Shown here: positions 52,042-60,554 of the stretch, piece after piece
How the letters are laid out: every line of letters starts with the position of its first letter
Position numbering within the stretch: position 1 is the stretch's first letter
DNA from: Acidobacteriota bacterium
Lineage (GTDB): Bacteria; Acidobacteriota; JAAYUB01
Direction of reading: 5' to 3'
NCBI GenBank assembly: GCA_016935015.1
Contig: JAFGRT010000167.1
Coordinates: 1 to 61,270 of the forward strand
DNA length: 61,270 nt
The notes under the pieces: model-generated
Seen by the model: only the letters and a program-made list of their open reading frames with translations
What the model was told of the DNA's origin: nothing
Database searches by the model: none
Made by a program: the position numbers and the translations under genes

Positions 52042-53361
52042 ATGAAAATTGCCGTATTCGGTATCGGCTATGTCGGGTTGGTTACCGGCACCTGTTTCGC
52101 AGAAACCGGCCATGACGTGATTTGTGTGGATATCGACCAGGAAAAAATCAGCGGCCTGCTTCGCGGCGAGTGCCCCATTTACGAACCTGGTCTGGAACCT
52201 ATGATCCAGCGGAACATGGAAGCCCATCGCCTTCGTTTTACCGATGACGCCCGTCAGGCGGTAGAAGAATCGCTGTTCCTTTTCATTGCGGTGGGTACAC
52301 CGCCCGGCGAGGACGGTTCGGCGGATTTGAAATACGTGTTGAAAGTGGCCGAAACCATCGGCGAATACATGAACGGCTACAAGATCATCATCAATAAAAG
52401 TACAGTACCCGTCGGCACCGCCGACAAGGTGCGCAAGACCATCCAGCGGATGACCACGCATGAATTCGACGTGGTCTCGAATCCGGAATTCCTCAAGGAA
52501 GGGAGCGCCGTCAGCGATTGCATGATGCCCGAACGGATCATCATCGGGGCGGATAACGTGCGCACCGCCGAGCTGCTCAAGGCCATGTACGCGCCTTTTG
52601 TGCGTACCGGAAATCCCATCTATGTCATGGATGTCCGTTCGGCCGAAACGACCAAGTATGCCGCCAACGCCATGCTGGCCACCCGCATCAGTTTTATGAA
52701 TCAGTTCGCCCGATTTTGCGAGAAGGTGGGCGCCGATATCGAGGCCATCCGCATCGGCATCGGTTCCGATTCCCGTATCGGCAAAAAATTCCTGTTCGCC
52801 GGCGCCGGCTACGGCGGTTCATGCTTCCCCAAGGATGTCCAGGCCGTCATCCGGACGGCCGCCGAATACGGGGTGACCATGGATCTTCTCGAGTCCGTGG
52901 AAAAGATCAACGACGAGCAGAAGGACTTGCTCGCCGCCAAAGTGCTGGATTATTTTCAGCACGATCTGGCCGGCAAGAAGGTCGCGGTGTGGGGGCTTTC
53001 CTTCAAACCCAAAACGGACGACATGCGCGAAGCCCCCTCCGTCGTGATCATCCGCGAACTGCTGAAGCACGGTGCCGACATCGTCGCCCATGATCCGGTG
53101 GCCCTCGAACCGGCCGTCCACATCTTCGGCGACACCATTCAATACGCCAAAAACTACTATGATGCGCTGACCGGAGCGGCGGCGCTGGTGCTCATCACCG
53201 AGTGGAATGAGTACCGTTACCCTGATTTCGGACGGATCAAGGAGCTGATGGACGAACCGGTCGTCTTTGACGGTCGCAACCTTTACAATCCTGAAGAGAT
53301 GCGAAAGTTGGGTTATGTTTACTTTGGCATCGGGCGGCGGACTGAGAACGTTTCCCAATAG
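52042..53361 (+). CDS. UDP-glucose 6-dehydrogenase
   Basis: The 439-residue protein begins KIAVFGIGYVGLVTGTCFAE (NAD binding) and has STVPVGTADKVR, NPEFLKEGSAVSD and the catalytic Cys in GYGGSCFPKD near residue 260. The C-terminal domain reads WGLSFKPKTDDMREAPS. It oxidises UDP-glucose to UDP-glucuronate for capsule, LPS or other glycans. GGGAGG lies 6 bases before the ATG. It heads the same-strand glycan run. Confidence 0.94.
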   Translation: MKIAVFGIGYVGLVTGTCFAETGHDVICVDIDQEKISGLLRGECPIYEPGLEPMIQRNMEAHRLRFTDDARQAVEESLFLFIAVGTPPGEDGSADLKYVLKVAETIGEYMNGYKIIINKSTVPVGTADKVRKTIQRMTTHEFDVVSNPEFLKEGSAVSDCMMPERIIIGADNVRTAELLKAMYAPFVRTGNPIYVMDVRSAETTKYAANAMLATRISFMNQFARFCEKVGADIEAIRIGIGSDSRIGKKFLFAGAGYGGSCFPKDVQAVIRTAAEYGVTMDLLESVEKINDEQKDLLAAKVLDYFQHDLAGKKVAVWGLSFKPKTDDMREAPSVVIIRELLKHGADIVAHDPVALEPAVHIFGDTIQYAKNYYDALTGAAALVLITEWNEYRYPDFGRIKELMDEPVVFDGRNLYNPEEMRKLGYVYFGIGRRTENVSQ

Positions 53362-54316
53362 GATCAGTATTATCATCCCCAACTGGAACGGAGTGCCGTT
53401 CCTGTTCGAGCTGTTTGCCTCCCTGCGCAGCGGCGGTCCCCACCCGCGTCGTGAAATCATCGTGGTGGACAACCACTCCAGCGACTCTTCCGCCGACATG
53501 ATCCGGACATTTTTTCCGGAAACCCGCATCATCCGCCTGGACGAAAACCTCGGCTTTGCCGCGGCCGTCAACCGCGGCCTGCATGCCAGCACCGGCGAAT
53601 ATGTGGCCGTCGTCAACAACGATGTCTCCTGGGAGCACGACTGGCTGGCGGCGGGGGCCGATTTTCTCGACTGTCATCAGGAATATGAATTTGTTGCACC
53701 GCGGGTGCTGAATTATTTCCAGCGCCAGCTCCTGGACAGCGCGGGCGATGGCCTGACCTGGCATTTGCGCCCCTACAAGCGCGGGAACGGACGCCCGAAG
53801 GAGGAGTTCGACTCCCCGGGGCGAATTTGGGCGGCGTCCTGTTCGGCCGTTCTGTTCCGGCGCAGTTTCTTTGAAAGGGTCGGGGCGTTTGACGAGGATT
53901 TTTTCATGTATTACGAGGATGTGGACCTGTTTTTTCGTTCCATCCTGAAAGGCTTTCAAGGCTATCTCCATACGGACATCGAGGTGTATCACCGCGAAGG
54001 AGGCAGTATCGACCGCTTTGAACGTTCCCCCCAGCGAAAAGGCGCCCGCCTTCTGAAGCCATACCTGCTGCAGCGTAACCGGGACTTCCTTCTGCTCAAA
54101 AATTGCCCGGGATTCTATCTTCTGCTGGGCTTTCCCTGGCTGGCCTGGGAGTTGCTCAGGGTAACGTTTTTGTTCACCCGGTGGCGGCGGCTCGGTACCT
54201 TTCTCAACGCCCATTTCCATGCGCTGAAGCACTGGCGGATCATGTGGCGCAAGCGATCCTTGATCCAAAAGCGACGCAAACTGACGATTCCCCAGTTTTA
54301 CCAGTGCCTGGGGTAG
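53315..54316 (+). CDS. Family 2 glycosyltransferase
   Basis: The catalytic GT-A domain has ISIIIPNWNG, VVDNHSSDSSADM, the nucleotide-sugar/metal region VAVVNNDVSWEHDW and the acceptor motif EDFFMYYEDVDLFFR. The last 80 residues include one or two hydrophobic segments and a basic tail. The start is not settled: ATG 53315 overlaps the dehydrogenase by 47 bases and has no clear ribosome site, but the core must begin by about 53360. It resembles rhamnosyl- or galactosyl-transferases of surface polysaccharides. Confidence 0.87.
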   Translation: MFTLASGGGLRTFPNRISIIIPNWNGVPFLFELFASLRSGGPHPRREIIVVDNHSSDSSADMIRTFFPETRIIRLDENLGFAAAVNRGLHASTGEYVAVVNNDVSWEHDWLAAGADFLDCHQEYEFVAPRVLNYFQRQLLDSAGDGLTWHLRPYKRGNGRPKEEFDSPGRIWAASCSAVLFRRSFFERVGAFDEDFFMYYEDVDLFFRSILKGFQGYLHTDIEVYHREGGSIDRFERSPQRKGARLLKPYLLQRNRDFLLLKNCPGFYLLLGFPWLAWELLRVTFLFTRWRRLGTFLNAHFHALKHWRIMWRKRSLIQKRRKLTIPQFYQCLG

Positions 54317-54411: not shown

Positions 54412-55434
54412 ATGGCGGTAAACAGCAAATTTGTCGTCAGCCGTGAGGAGATTCAGAACGAGCTGTATTACGTCAACAAGCTGCTGGCTGAGCTGAAAAA
54501 GCGGATCGTGGGCCAGGACAAGCTGTTGTCCCGGTTGCTGACCGGGCTGCTTACCGGCGGCCACCTGCTGGTGGAAGGGGTTCCGGGCCTGGCCAAGTCG
54601 CTGGCGGTCAGTTCCCTGGCCGAAGTCCTCAGCATGGACTTCAAACGCATCCAGTTTACGCCCGATCTCTTGCCGGCGGATCTCATCGGCACCATGATAT
54701 TCAATGCCAAGACGGCGGAATTCGAACCGCGCAAGGGGCCCATCTTCACCCACATCCTGTTGGCCGACGAGATCAACCGCGCCCCGGCCAAGGTGCAGTC
54801 GGCGCTGCTGGAGGCCATGCAGGAACAGCAGGTAACCATCGGCAATACCACCTATCCGCTCCAGTCGCCGTTTCTGGTGCTGGCCACCCAAAATCCCATC
54901 GAGCAGGAGGGAACCTATCCCTTGCCGGAAGCCCAGATGGACCGTTTTTTCATGAAAATCCTCCTGCAATACCCCGACAAAAAAATGGAAAAGGAAATCC
55001 TTCGCCGCATGACCGAGGGGGACGGCGTGGCTATGGAACTGGCCCGCGGCAAGCAGATCCAGCTGAAGCAGGTGGTGGTGCCCGAACGAATCCAGAAACT
55101 GCGCCTGATGGCCAACCAGATTTATGTGGACGAACGCATTATGGACTACATTCTGGATATCGTCTTCGCCACGCGGCGACCCGATGACTATGGACTGAAT
55201 CTGGCGGCCTACATTCGCTTCGGCGCCTCCCCCCGCGGGACCATCGCTCTCAAGGTTGGGGCCCGCTGCCAGGCATTCCTGCGGGGGCGCAATTTCGTTG
55301 TGCCCGAGGACATCAAGGAGATCGCCTATGATGTGTTGCGGCACCGGATCATTCTGTCGTTCGAGGCCGAAGCCGCGGGGATCACCCCGGACGAGATCAT
55401 CCATAAGATCCTGGCCACCGTCGATGTTCCCTGA
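54412..55434 (+). CDS. MoxR-family AAA+ ATPase
   Basis: The 340-residue protein has Walker A EGVPGLAKS, Walker B HILLADEINRAP, sensor 1 in LATQNPIEQEG and the C-terminal AAA lid. MoxR proteins act as chaperones with partners carrying von Willebrand-like domains, often the adjacent DUF58 protein. GGAAAGGGAAGG precedes the ATG. Its target in this cluster could be envelope-assembly enzymes, which is inference. Confidence 0.93.
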   Translation: MAVNSKFVVSREEIQNELYYVNKLLAELKKRIVGQDKLLSRLLTGLLTGGHLLVEGVPGLAKSLAVSSLAEVLSMDFKRIQFTPDLLPADLIGTMIFNAKTAEFEPRKGPIFTHILLADEINRAPAKVQSALLEAMQEQQVTIGNTTYPLQSPFLVLATQNPIEQEGTYPLPEAQMDRFFMKILLQYPDKKMEKEILRRMTEGDGVAMELARGKQIQLKQVVVPERIQKLRLMANQIYVDERIMDYILDIVFATRRPDDYGLNLAAYIRFGASPRGTIALKVGARCQAFLRGRNFVVPEDIKEIAYDVLRHRIILSFEAEAAGITPDEIIHKILATVDVP

Positions 55435-55462
55435 CGGATCGTCACGTGAAAGGCGTTGATCA

Positions 55463-56347
55463 TTGGACCTCAAGGAACTGATCCAATCCATTCATCTGAT
55501 TGAGATACGAACGCGCAAAAAACTGCAGGGCGGTCTGGCCTCATCGTACCGGAATGTATTTCGCGGCCAGGGGATGGAGTTCGCCGAAGTGCGCGAATAT
55601 GTAAGCGGCGACGACGTCCGGCTCATCGACTGGAACGTTTCGGCTCGCTTCCATAACCTATACGTGAAACAGCTTATGGAAGAGCGGGAGTTGTCCATCG
55701 TCATCGCCGTCCAGTGCACCCGATCCATGAATTTCGGCACTGTCCACAAGACCAAGTTCCAGATGGCGGCTGAAGTGGCGGCGACGCTGATCTTCTCGGC
55801 CCTGCACAGCGGCGACCGCGTCGGTCTGGTGCTGTACAGCGCGGGTGATGCCGTCACCTACATCCCGCCCAACAAGGGGATGAACCACGGCTTTCTTCTT
55901 CTGAACCGTTTGTTGGAACAAAAAATCGTCGGCGATGTCCCTTCTTCTTACGAGGTGCTACGGTTTTTAACGTACTCTCTCAAGAAAAGGAGTGTGGTGT
56001 TCCTGATTGGTGATTTCATCTACGCGGATATGCACACGGAAACGCTGGCCGCTGTCTCACGGCGACATGATCTTATCTGTATCGGCGTGCTGGATGCCAT
56101 GGAAACGGAAGGCCCGCCTGATGGCGTTTTTCCCTTTCGGAACGAGGCCTGCCCCCGCGGGTTTACGGGCGTTTCCCCGGCCACCCGGGAGAAATACCGG
56201 TCCCTGGTGGAGGAGCGGCTGGCGGAACTGAAGATCCTATTACGGACTTCCCATGTCGACAGTATATTTTTACAGACCCATGCTGCCAGTGAACAGGAAT
56301 TGCACCGCTTGTTCATGGAACGGATTCATGCCATCCCGCCGCACTGA
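55463..56347 (+). CDS. DUF58 protein
   Basis: The start is TTG at 55463 with AAAGGCG upstream. The 294-residue protein opens LDLKELIQSIHLIEIRTRKKL and has the DUF58 core VREYVSGDDVRLIDWNVSARF near residues 40-60. A VWA-like fold follows, with a degenerate metal site (AVQCTRSMNFG). It pairs with MoxR 28 bases upstream. The family is linked to maturation of complexes; no enzymatic role is established. Confidence 0.9.
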   Translation: MDLKELIQSIHLIEIRTRKKLQGGLASSYRNVFRGQGMEFAEVREYVSGDDVRLIDWNVSARFHNLYVKQLMEERELSIVIAVQCTRSMNFGTVHKTKFQMAAEVAATLIFSALHSGDRVGLVLYSAGDAVTYIPPNKGMNHGFLLLNRLLEQKIVGDVPSSYEVLRFLTYSLKKRSVVFLIGDFIYADMHTETLAAVSRRHDLICIGVLDAMETEGPPDGVFPFRNEACPRGFTGVSPATREKYRSLVEERLAELKILLRTSHVDSIFLQTHAASEQELHRLFMERIHAIPPH

Positions 56348-56461
56348 CATTGCTCAATCGGCCGGACCGGACATGGCGGACATGGCGAGGCGGCCGGGGA
56401 AGGCGGAGGCAGTCGGTATCGAGAGTCATGGCATGTACCGTCGATGGAAAGGAAGCAGAAC

Positions 56462-58447
56462 GTGAACGCAAGGGACCGGGGAAACCTACGGATACTGCTG
56501 ACAGGCGGAGGAACGGGCGGCCATGTGTATCCGCTGCTGTCCATCTTGCAGATCATCCGTCGGCACCGGGCGGTGGCGGAGGTTCTGTTTGTGGGCGCCA
56601 AGGGAAAAGCGGAGGAAACCATCGTTCCCCGGACGGACATCCCCCTGCGTTTTGTCCGCTGTGCGCCGCTGTCCAGCCTGCAGCCCTGGCGGATGATCCC
56701 GGCCCTGTGGCAGATTTTTTGCGGCACTCTCCAGGCCATGGGCATCCTGTGGCGGTTCCGGCCCGGAATCGTGCTGGCCGCCGGCGGCTATGTGAGCGCG
56801 CCGGTGACGTTCGCCGCCTTCCTGCTGCGGCCCCTGCTGGGCTGCCGGCTGATCATCGACGAGCAGAACGTGGTGCCGGGACTCATGAACAAGGTGGCGT
56901 CTCTGTTCGCCGAAGTGGTCATGGTCAGTTTTCCGGAGACTCCCTCCTACATCTGGAATAACCGCTGCGTGTATACGGGCTACCCGGTCCGTCCCGAATT
57001 CATGGCGGAAATCGACCAAAAGACGGCCCGCCGGCAACTGGGCTTGCCGCAGGAACGGCGGGTGGTGCTGGTGTACGGCGGTTCCATGGGCTCCCGTTCC
57101 ATCAACCGGCTGTTGATGGATGTGCTCCCCCAGCTGGCCGGGCTGGACGTCCCGTTGACCATCATTCATTCCTGCGGCCTGTCGGTGCACGGTTACCATG
57201 CCTGGGAGGATACGACGGCGCGCCTGCAGGACGGGCGCTTGCCCGAAGGCACCGCACTGCAAAAAGCAGACAGCGGCTGGCGTGCCGTAACGCCGGACGA
57301 CAGGATCCATTATCGGCTGGAACCGTACCTGCATGGTCTGGCTGATTATCTGCGCGCCGCCGATCTGGTGGTCTGCCGGGCCGGTGCCGGCAGCCTGGCC
57401 GAACTTATGGCTGTCGGCCGGGCGGCCATCGTGATTCCCAAGCGGAAACTGCCCGGCGATCACCAGGAACATAACGCCATCAACCTGGCCGAAAACGGCG
57501 GTTGCGAAGTCGTTTTCGAATACGAGGGGGTGGATGGATTCGATACGGTGGACGTTGCCGAGTTCAGTCGTCTTTTCCGGGAATTGCTGCAGGCGCCGGA
57601 GCGTCTGGCGACTATGGCCGGCCGGGCCTATGCCCGGTTTAACCGTAAATTTGAACCACGCATTGCCGGTGTAGTGCAGCACCTGCTCAACGGCCAGGGC
57701 ATAGAATACGAGTCCTCCCTCGTGGAGCCCAAACGTCTCGAGCTCCAGAAGCAGACGGACCAGCTGGTTCGCTTCCTCCTTGGGGAGCCGCCGGACGGCC
57801 TTTACCGCCGGTTCTACCGTATCAAGATGGACGAGTATCTGCGCGCGGCCCACTGGGCCACGGTCAACAAGGGAATCAAATTGGCCGGGGCGCTGCAGCG
57901 TGTGGACAAAATCAAGGACCTGCGGCGTTTGTTTCAGAGCGGGAACGGTTTCATGCGCCGTAACGTGATGCAGGCCCTCGTGCATTTCAACCGCTATCAC
58001 CCGGTAATGGCCGAACTGATCATGGCCGGGCTGGGCGATTCGTATTTCGAGGTACGGGCCGCCGCGCTGCAGGTGGCGGCGGCCTATGCCGACTCGTTAC
58101 GGCATGATGTCCCGGTGAGGGATGCTGTCATCGCTCGCTGCACCCGCCGCCGGGAGCACTTCGATGTGCGCATCACCGGTGTGCGTACGCTGCCCCAGTT
58201 CATCGATCTGCCGGAGTATTTCCGGATTGTCGGTCCGCTGCGGTTCGCCCGCAATGTCCTGCTGCGCAAGGCGGTGCTGGAGGGGATCCGGGCGGCGTTG
58301 TCGCGGCAGCCCATGTCGGATGAACTAAAAAAAGAGGTGCGCCGGTTTATCAGCGAGTTCCTCGTCACGACATCCGACTTCGAGCCCAGCTTCAGCATCC
58401 GCCAGAGTTATGTGGATTTGTACCGTCATCTGTCCAACGGTGAATGA
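56462..58447 (+). CDS. murG: MurG-type glycosyltransferase fused to a C-terminal helical-repeat domain
   Basis: I prefer the GTG at 56462, with AAAGGAAG upstream, over ATG 56444. The first 410 residues form a GT-B enzyme of MurG type: TGGGTGGHVYPLL near residue 14, AAGGYVSAPV, YGGSMGSRSINR and the UDP-GlcNAc site CRAGAGSLAELMAVG with PKRKLPGDHQEHNA. An extra segment of about 45 residues precedes YRLEPYL. The final 240 residues, absent from standard MurG, are helical with HEAT-like repeats (FMRRNVMQALVHF, EVRAAALQVAAA, DVRITGVRTL). Normal MurG makes lipid II on the inner membrane face. mraY follows 58 bases later. Confidence 0.85.
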   Translation: MNARDRGNLRILLTGGGTGGHVYPLLSILQIIRRHRAVAEVLFVGAKGKAEETIVPRTDIPLRFVRCAPLSSLQPWRMIPALWQIFCGTLQAMGILWRFRPGIVLAAGGYVSAPVTFAAFLLRPLLGCRLIIDEQNVVPGLMNKVASLFAEVVMVSFPETPSYIWNNRCVYTGYPVRPEFMAEIDQKTARRQLGLPQERRVVLVYGGSMGSRSINRLLMDVLPQLAGLDVPLTIIHSCGLSVHGYHAWEDTTARLQDGRLPEGTALQKADSGWRAVTPDDRIHYRLEPYLHGLADYLRAADLVVCRAGAGSLAELMAVGRAAIVIPKRKLPGDHQEHNAINLAENGGCEVVFEYEGVDGFDTVDVAEFSRLFRELLQAPERLATMAGRAYARFNRKFEPRIAGVVQHLLNGQGIEYESSLVEPKRLELQKQTDQLVRFLLGEPPDGLYRRFYRIKMDEYLRAAHWATVNKGIKLAGALQRVDKIKDLRRLFQSGNGFMRRNVMQALVHFNRYHPVMAELIMAGLGDSYFEVRAAALQVAAAYADSLRHDVPVRDAVIARCTRRREHFDVRITGVRTLPQFIDLPEYFRIVGPLRFARNVLLRKAVLEGIRAALSRQPMSDELKKEVRRFISEFLVTTSDFEPSFSIRQSYVDLYRHLSNGE

Positions 58448-58505: not shown

Positions 58506-59612
58506 ATGATCGATATTCTCGTCACCATCCTGCAAGAGAGCGGCGTTGATTTCGGCTTTTTCCGGCTCCTTGACTTCATCACGTTCCGCGTGCTGCTTAC
58601 CGCCATGACGGCCCTGATCTTTCTGCTCATCTTCGGCCACCGCATCATCGTCGAACTCTATCAAAAAAGAATGCGCGATACCGGCTCCGATTTCGCGGCC
58701 CTGGACATGCGCAACAAGCGTGGCACGCCCACCGCCGGTGGAATCATGATCATTTTTGCTGTCTTCATCTCCGTTTTTTTGTGGGGCAAACTCGGTAATC
58801 CCTATTTGCAGGTTATTCTGTTTTCCTTCCTCTATTTCGGTCTCATCGGCTGGTTCGACGACGCCCAGAAAGTCCGAATGAAATCCTCCCTCTTCGGATT
58901 GAGCCAGCTGGCCAAAACCGTCTTGCAATTGCTGTTCATCGTCCCCTATGCCATCTGGTTCATTTCACCCTTCAATCCCGTGCCGGCGATCCATCACACC
59001 GAAGTCTGGCTTCCGTTCGTCAAGCACCCGCTCTTCGACGCCGGACCGATCCTGTTCGGCGCATTCATCATCTTCGTATTTTTTTCCATCCTGAACGCGG
59101 TCAACATCACCGACGGCCTGGACGGACTGGTCACCGGCCCGTCCATCCTGGCCGTGGCCGCCTATGGCATCTTCGCCTATATCCTGGGCAACACCGTGCT
59201 CAGCGGCTATTTCCTGTTCCCCTATTTTGCGGGCTGCGGCGAGCTTTCGGTCTTTGCCGGCGGACTGGTGGGCGCCTTGTTCGGTTTCTTGTGGTATAAC
59301 GCCTATCCGGCCGAGGTTTTCATGGGGGATACGGGTTCGTTGGCCATCGGCGGAGCCCTGGCGGTCATGGCTTTTCAGACCCGGCAGGAAATGCTGTTTC
59401 CCCTGGCCGGCGGCATGTTCGTGGTCATGATTTTTTCCTCGCTGGTTCAGGAAAAAATCGGCATGCGCCTGGGACGGCGAATCCTGATTCGGGCACCCAT
59501 CCATCACAGCCTGCGCTACCGGGGCATCGCCGAGCCCAAGGTGGTGACGCGCCTGTGGATCATTTCCACCCTGATGATGCTTGTGGCGCTCCTGTCCATC
59601 AAACTTCGGTAA
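58506..59612 (+). CDS. mraY: MraY-family phospho-sugar transferase with altered histidine motif
   Basis: The 368-residue polytopic protein has the catalytic blocks GTPTAGGIMII, LIGWFDDAQKV (Asp pair near 117-118), NAVNITDGLDGL and FMGDTGSLAIGG. The conserved PxHHHFE segment of MraY reads APIHHSLRYRGIAEPKVV here, so the third His is replaced by Ser. MraY transfers phospho-MurNAc-pentapeptide to undecaprenyl phosphate. It could be the cell's true MraY or a paralogue using another sugar. No other dcw genes (murE, murF, murD, ftsW) are adjacent. Confidence 0.87.
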   Translation: MIDILVTILQESGVDFGFFRLLDFITFRVLLTAMTALIFLLIFGHRIIVELYQKRMRDTGSDFAALDMRNKRGTPTAGGIMIIFAVFISVFLWGKLGNPYLQVILFSFLYFGLIGWFDDAQKVRMKSSLFGLSQLAKTVLQLLFIVPYAIWFISPFNPVPAIHHTEVWLPFVKHPLFDAGPILFGAFIIFVFFSILNAVNITDGLDGLVTGPSILAVAAYGIFAYILGNTVLSGYFLFPYFAGCGELSVFAGGLVGALFGFLWYNAYPAEVFMGDTGSLAIGGALAVMAFQTRQEMLFPLAGGMFVVMIFSSLVQEKIGMRLGRRILIRAPIHHSLRYRGIAEPKVVTRLWIISTLMMLVALLSIKLR

Positions 59613-59630: not shown

Positions 59631-60554
59631 ATGGCCTGTATGCCTAAAAAGCATGACCCACGCCGGAAGAACCTCCGCCTTGGACGCATTTCAGCGGCCA
59701 TGGCCCTGGCAGGGCTGGTAGCCGCGGCCTGCACGTCGTCGGGCTGGTTGTGGCGACAGAACGAGGAAGGGCCGCTGTGGGTGCGGGTGGCCACCCATCG
59801 ATGGCTGAAAGTTTCTGAAATCGGACGGGGGGAACTGGCGGCGGCCTGTGATGTCGTCCTAGCCGATGAGCGGATCTCCTTTTCGCAGCTCCATCTGCGG
59901 CGGCAGAGCCATTTCCGGTTAAACATCTTCGCATTCAAACCGGAGACCTTTCTTTTCCAGACCGTGTTCAAGCCGGAGTTCATGCTCACCACCCAAGACG
60001 AGATGGGGGGGGAGCGACCGGCGCTCATTTTCATCATCAATGCCAACTACTTCGACGAGGATTTTCAGCCGCTGGGCTGGGTCGTCCATGAAGGGCGGAC
60101 CTTCAACCGTGAAGCCGGCCGGTTCGACGGATATTTCCTCGTCACTGACGATCTCCGGCCGGTGGTGGGCTCGCGCGAACAGCGGGTCCGGGCGCGGGGC
60201 CGGATCCGCGAGGCAGTCCAGTCCTATCCGTTGCTGCTGGAGGATTACCGGGTACGGGAAGACGTCCTGCGCGGCAAGGAGCGGTTGACCCATGCGGCGG
60301 AACGGACGTGGCGCGTCCTCATCGGCCAGCTGGCCGACGACACGTTGATCTTTCTGGCCTCGGATGCCGGCTGTATAGTGGACTTGCATGAAATGGTCCA
60401 GCTGGCCGGCGGCTTGAATATCCGGAACGCCATGGCCCTGGACGGCGGGGGGTCGGTCCAGTACAGTTTGCGATACGGGGATACGGCGCACAGCTTCAGC
60501 GTGCGCGGGCGGAAGGTGCCGGTCTTTGTCGGGATTACGGAAAAATCCGACTAG
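59631..60554 (+). CDS. Phosphodiester glycosidase (NAGPA-like) family protein
   Basis: The 307-residue protein has a hydrophobic N-terminus ending in LVAAAC, a possible lipoprotein or signal site, so it should act outside the cytoplasm. The catalytic domain carries FIINANYFDE and the family signature NAMALDGGGSVQYSL near residues 265-280, and ends with KVPVFVGI. Relatives remove GlcNAc or other sugars from phosphodiester linkages. It follows mraY by 18 bases, so it may trim or recycle a phosphate-linked glycan made by this cluster. That is inference. Confidence 0.87.
   Translation: MACMPKKHDPRRKNLRLGRISAAMALAGLVAAACTSSGWLWRQNEEGPLWVRVATHRWLKVSEIGRGELAAACDVVLADERISFSQLHLRRQSHFRLNIFAFKPETFLFQTVFKPEFMLTTQDEMGGERPALIFIINANYFDEDFQPLGWVVHEGRTFNREAGRFDGYFLVTDDLRPVVGSREQRVRARGRIREAVQSYPLLLEDYRVREDVLRGKERLTHAAERTWRVLIGQLADDTLIFLASDAGCIVDLHEMVQLAGGLNIRNAMALDGGGSVQYSLRYGDTAHSFSVRGRKVPVFVGITEKSD

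Follow-up and report, generated by a model that had tools for sequence, protein, structure and literature searches.

A MurG-HEAT protein encoded beside mraY in Acidobacteriota and its fusions with MurJ

The murG-HEAT locus and its product

The window, a 61,270-nucleotide stretch of the Acidobacteriota bacterium contig JAFGRT010000167.1, was found to contain a single open frame of 667 amino acids on the forward strand, referred to here as murG-HEAT, which runs from an ATG at 56444 to a stop codon at 58447. An in-frame GTG at 56462, with a GGAAG stretch just 5′ of it, is an alternative start and murG-HEAT may use either. The frame encodes a GT28 N-terminal domain (56492–56923, residues 17–160; PF03033, E=3.4e-24), which is the acceptor and membrane side of the enzyme, and a GT28 C-terminal domain (57062–57526, residues 207–361; PF04101, E=2.6e-23), which is the UDP-GlcNAc side and includes a lengthened loop of 44 residues (57179–57310, residues 246–289). 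These are followed by a HEAT-like tail of ~240 residues (57716–58444, residues 425–667) that is basic (pI ~10) and was predicted to be all-helical. The next gene on the same strand is mraY (58506–59612; TIGR00445, E=4.8e-80), which encodes the genome's only full MraY, and moxR and DUF58 genes lie upstream, also on the forward strand (54412–56347). Further upstream, genes for a UDP-glucose dehydrogenase and a family 2 glycosyltransferase (52042–54316) suggest that an exopolysaccharide locus adjoins the module. An NAGPA-type phosphodiester glycosidase is encoded after mraY (59631–60554) and was not conserved at related loci. Elsewhere in the genome there is a second, weak MraY-like gene (L115, G000:C36:628–1467; 68.9 bits) in a 529-aa open frame, which is probably a WecA-type transferase.

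The first claim of the sequence-only reading, a complete MurG-like GT-B enzyme, was borne out by the presence of both GT28 domains and by a match at all seven motif columns (H27, N142, G213, R312, E320, Q341 and N344). The motifs comprise the histidine of GGTGGH27 and the asparagine of EQN142 in the N-domain, the arginine of CR..GA, and E320, Q341 and N344 of the UDP-GlcNAc site in the C-domain, and they aligned with those of the solved MurGs of E. coli (1f0k) and P. aeruginosa (3s2u). The seven columns were invariant across the clade of MurGs that carry the tail, except that a single partial row had a gap at one of them. Against the NCBIfam murG model (TIGR01133) the window protein scored 219 bits over nearly the full model, below the curated cut-off of 250.25 bits; this is a naming threshold, and the best match of 111 of the 396 genomes of the phylum, some of them untailed, also fell below it. 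The window genome (4.75 Mb, 96.8% complete, a draft of 237 contigs) encoded one GT28 N-domain gene only, which is thus its sole MurG. On its sequence, the window protein is the organism's lipid II synthase, with transfer of GlcNAc to lipid I as its predicted reaction. It has both GT28 domains, the catalytic motifs and a sole genome copy in common with the E. coli and P. aeruginosa enzymes, whereas the HEAT tail, the longer loop, a location outside the dcw cluster and the constant presence of mraY as the next gene set it apart from known MurG.

It is very improbable that MurG-HEAT and MraY make some other lipid-linked glycan while a normal MurG/MraY pair makes peptidoglycan. A module outside the dcw cluster, beside sugar genes in the window and with a score below the NCBIfam cut-off would fit such a role, but the catalytic residues are intact and the genome also carries FtsZ, FtsA, FtsW, FtsI and MurC/D/E. 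As the module holds the sole MurG and the only full-scoring MraY of that genome, an alternative glycan pathway was rejected.

An internal insertion of about 45 residues had also been proposed from the sequence. The loop is real but the insertion is smaller: its 44 residues compare with a median of 17 (15–23) in untailed MurGs, so that there are ~27 extra residues rather than 45. A lengthened loop was common to the tailed clade, in which it measured 26–44 residues in all MurGs.

The C-terminal HEAT-like extension of ~240 residues, which the earlier reading had placed in the same frame as MurG, is part of the single 667-aa frame, and structure prediction and profile search agreed on its nature. 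In the full-length AF2 model, built from two input sequences, the MurG half reached a mean pLDDT of only 59, so a model of the tail alone was used; this had ~13 helices, a mean pLDDT of 85 and a pTM of 0.84. Foldseek analysis of the tail model revealed HEAT and armadillo proteins (PP2A PR65, importins, designed armadillo and alphaRep) at a probability of 1.00, with none of the matches reaching an E-value <0.001. A profile of the tail from 11 relatives matched alphaRep chains in the PDB, down to 2.8e-23. Pfam HEAT_2 matched the window tail alone weakly (19.5 bits, against a gathering score of 27.7) and was matched by 10 of the 11 aligned relatives, the best at E=5.6e-26. Taken as models, these results support a HEAT/ARM fold of stacked antiparallel helix pairs. 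While the fold is predicted to be like that of the HEAT/ARM scaffolds PP2A PR65, importins and alphaRep, the tail differs from them in having its own conserved motifs and in being attached to cell-wall enzymes. The motifs NxGIKL, GFxRRN, DxYFEVR and ITTSxFxPxFxIR were conserved in the alignment of the 11 relatives. Overall, conservation was lower in the tail, at 26–47% identity, than in the MurG part, at 33–58%.

Distribution and fusion architectures in the phylum

The sampling covered one phylum, Acidobacteriota, as 396 mostly draft genomes, and the evidence is computational throughout. Strong matches to the tail profile were found in 48 of the 396 genomes, from 13 families, with best E-values from 1e-106 to 4e-25, and the pI of the tail was between 7.9 and 10.8 in all but one of the 48. 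Ten further genomes had weak matches only (E ≥ 3e-8), all in other proteins, as is expected for general HEAT repeats. Every strong match lay within a MurG frame or in a contig-end fragment; none of the high-scoring matches in the 396 genomes was a tail gene of its own amid unrelated neighbours. The fusion is therefore conserved in homologues, as the earlier reading had asked, and at high score the tail occurs only with MurG. That two genes were joined artificially during sequencing or assembly, as the draft state of the window genome might have suggested, has a negligible probability: the same full-length frame recurs in tens of independent assemblies, including the single-contig genome G123, and this excludes a frameshift.

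Three architectures were found and were verified by Pfam on seven proteins. MurG-HEAT is that of the window and of most families. MurJ-MurG-HEAT, of ~1160 aa, was encoded by five genomes (G018, G227, G275, G101 and G247), two of which (G018 and G275) have two MurJs each, one standalone and one within the fusion. MurG-MurJ-HEAT was encoded by ten genomes, five each in families f6 and f27, with lengths of 1073–1328 aa plus one protein ended by a contig edge. The linker of this last form (f27 loci L039 and L093, ~residues 400–525; L040, ~350–455) seems to be beta-rich and is perhaps FHA-like; no Pfam match at E <0.01 was obtained for it in L039, L093 or L040. Long MurG frames of 558–806 aa in untailed genomes were considered as extra fusions and rejected, as FtsW overlaps them in another frame.

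Where MurJ was a separate protein its position varied. In f15/g83, murJ is directly upstream of murG-HEAT and in f28 it is directly downstream of mraY at 7 of 10 loci. In the window's own family, genomes G001–G003 encode MurJ away from the module. In the window genome itself MurJ was not found with PF03023, nor with the MurJ of a relative (a search that had no positive control), which possibly reflects draft incompleteness or another flippase, and MurJ was likewise found in none of the four f31 genomes. Coupling to MurJ is thus not universal.

Exit from the dcw cluster and inheritance with mraY

At the tailed loci where the next gene was visible, this was always mraY on the same strand (46/46). 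The median distance from the stop of the tailed frame to the first aligned MraY codon was −4 nt (46 pairs), and the stop and start codons of the two genes usually overlap, by ~4 nt. No window neighbour other than mraY was conserved at related loci. MoxR and DUF58, which had been put forward as partners of the tail, adjoin a tailed murG in the window but at 0 of the 48 other loci, and hence fall outside the module; scaffolding with MraY, suggested at the same time, gained support both from the adjacency and from the trees described below.

The dcw cluster of the window genome was located on another contig (C60, locus L116) and encodes, in this order, mraZ, rsmH, ftsI, murE, murD, ftsW, murC, ftsA and ftsZ. 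It has neither mraY nor murG, and murC directly follows ftsW with no murG between them. Inspection of 15 tailed genomes showed that the dcw stretch around murC lacked exactly these two genes in every one, some of the stretches ending at contig edges; compared to the canonical cluster, the remaining gene order was largely kept. In contrast, murG adjoined ftsW and/or murC at 39 of 40 untailed loci, and mraY was within the dcw stretch in all untailed genomes fetched for it. The possible link to the division machinery raised by the sequence-only reading found no support, since murG-HEAT has left the division cluster. A second, different route out of dcw was observed in G031 (f23; L149/L153), which encodes an untailed, fast-evolving MurG of 373 aa outside the cluster; MraY, FtsW, MurC and MurJ were not seen adjoining this gene.

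As the tail coincides with the exit from dcw, it could dock soluble partners, namely the MurC–MurF ligases, MreB or other shape proteins, and so offset the separation of murG from the dcw ligases and FtsW. HEAT folds are general protein-binding scaffolds, and a section of PMC6420597 reports that MurG binds MurD, MurE, MurF and MreB in other bacteria. We nevertheless regard docking of soluble partners as unlikely, as mraY is the only constant genetic partner and MurJ the only fusion partner.

In a tree of 82 MurGs, one branch with a support of 100/100 separated the 45 tailed from the 37 untailed proteins, so that the tailed MurGs form a fully supported clade apart from the other MurGs of the phylum. 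A tree of MraY from 48 genomes had a single split between tailed and untailed genomes (support 100), and its inner order was much like that of the MurG tree, for example in grouping G229 with G373 and f34 with f61 and f28. MurC, which stayed in dcw, gave a different result: its tree mixed tailed and untailed genomes, and the label required 8 changes, of which at least 6 fell on branches with support. In this tree G048, G348 and G229 grouped with untailed genomes from their own or nearby families. The best E-values per genome revealed no high-scoring untailed MurG in the tailed genomes. The mirrored MurG and MraY trees and the discordant MurC tree show that MurG-HEAT and MraY are inherited together and behave as one cassette, which either moved laterally between lineages or is an ancient second copy kept with repeated loss. 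At slightly under even odds, we propose a mobile lipid II cassette, in which a single-chain or tightly bound machine of MraY, MurG and MurJ, held by the HEAT domain, would make and flip lipid II in one place and would have displaced mraY and murG of the dcw cluster repeatedly within the phylum.

A proposed docking role for the tail

What is constant in these loci is the tail and the place just before mraY, and what varies is how MurJ joins; a docking surface is the simplest reading of this. We consider it probable, though well short of certain, that MraY, MurG and MurJ form a lipid II assembly and that the HEAT tail is its dedicated docking domain. MurJ has 14 helices with both ends inside, so that MurG and the tail would be cytoplasmic in every fusion order. 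The tail would be held at the inner face of the membrane by its basic surface and would bind cytoplasmic loops of MraY, and of MurJ where MurJ is encoded separately. MurG would then receive lipid I from MraY and hand lipid II on to the flippase, with no free diffusion through the membrane on the way. The overlap of murG-HEAT and mraY may additionally let the partners assemble during translation. Gene adjacency and fusion suggest contact, yet co-regulation can also produce both. The part of PMC6420597 on MurG interactions reports that the E. coli enzyme interacts with MraY and MreB.

The basic surface would also be consistent with a passive membrane anchor, in which basic helices would keep MurG on acidic phospholipid and bind no particular protein. 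Almost all of the tails have a high pI, and MurG enzymes are peripheral to the membrane. This explanation is improbable, however, because the tail is also present where MurG is already anchored through a fused MurJ, so that a passive anchor is not needed there; additionally, the strong conservation of NxGIKL, GFxRRN and DxYFEVR suggests more than charge.

Fusions of Mur proteins are themselves known. Passages of PMC6420597 describe MurE-MurF, MurB-MurC, MurG-MurC, MurC-Ddl and MraY-MurG, and a passage of PMC4929429 describes FtsW-MurG and MurG-MurC. As in the docking reading of MurG-HEAT, pathway enzymes joined in one chain are taken in those passages as a sign of a complex. Unlike in the fusions described there, MurG gains a repeat domain that is not an enzyme, and the fusions with MurJ come in two orders; those same passages name neither a MurJ fusion nor a HEAT-domain fusion. 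In the open-access literature, no paper was found that combines MurG and MurJ with a HEAT-repeat fusion, and no report was found of MurJ fused to MurG or of an mraY/murG/murJ operon in Acidobacteria. The MurG/MurJ/HEAT fusion is thus likely, rather than proven, to be new, this search being one of open-access papers.

It has long been asked whether MraY, MurG and MurJ form a single complex through which lipid I and lipid II are channelled, and model bacteria, in which the three are separate proteins, make this difficult to answer. In the genomes described here some of the contacts have been made permanent by evolution: MurG and MurJ can share a polypeptide, in either order, with a common domain that probably serves for docking, and mraY is always the gene that follows. 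The fused proteins are stable natural constructs for structural work and removal of the tail would be a direct test of channelling. For the organisms that carry it, the module means that two essential cell-wall genes act as a pair, which either takes the place of the usual copies or is retained in preference to them, and it suggests that the making and the export of lipid II are run by one physical assembly.
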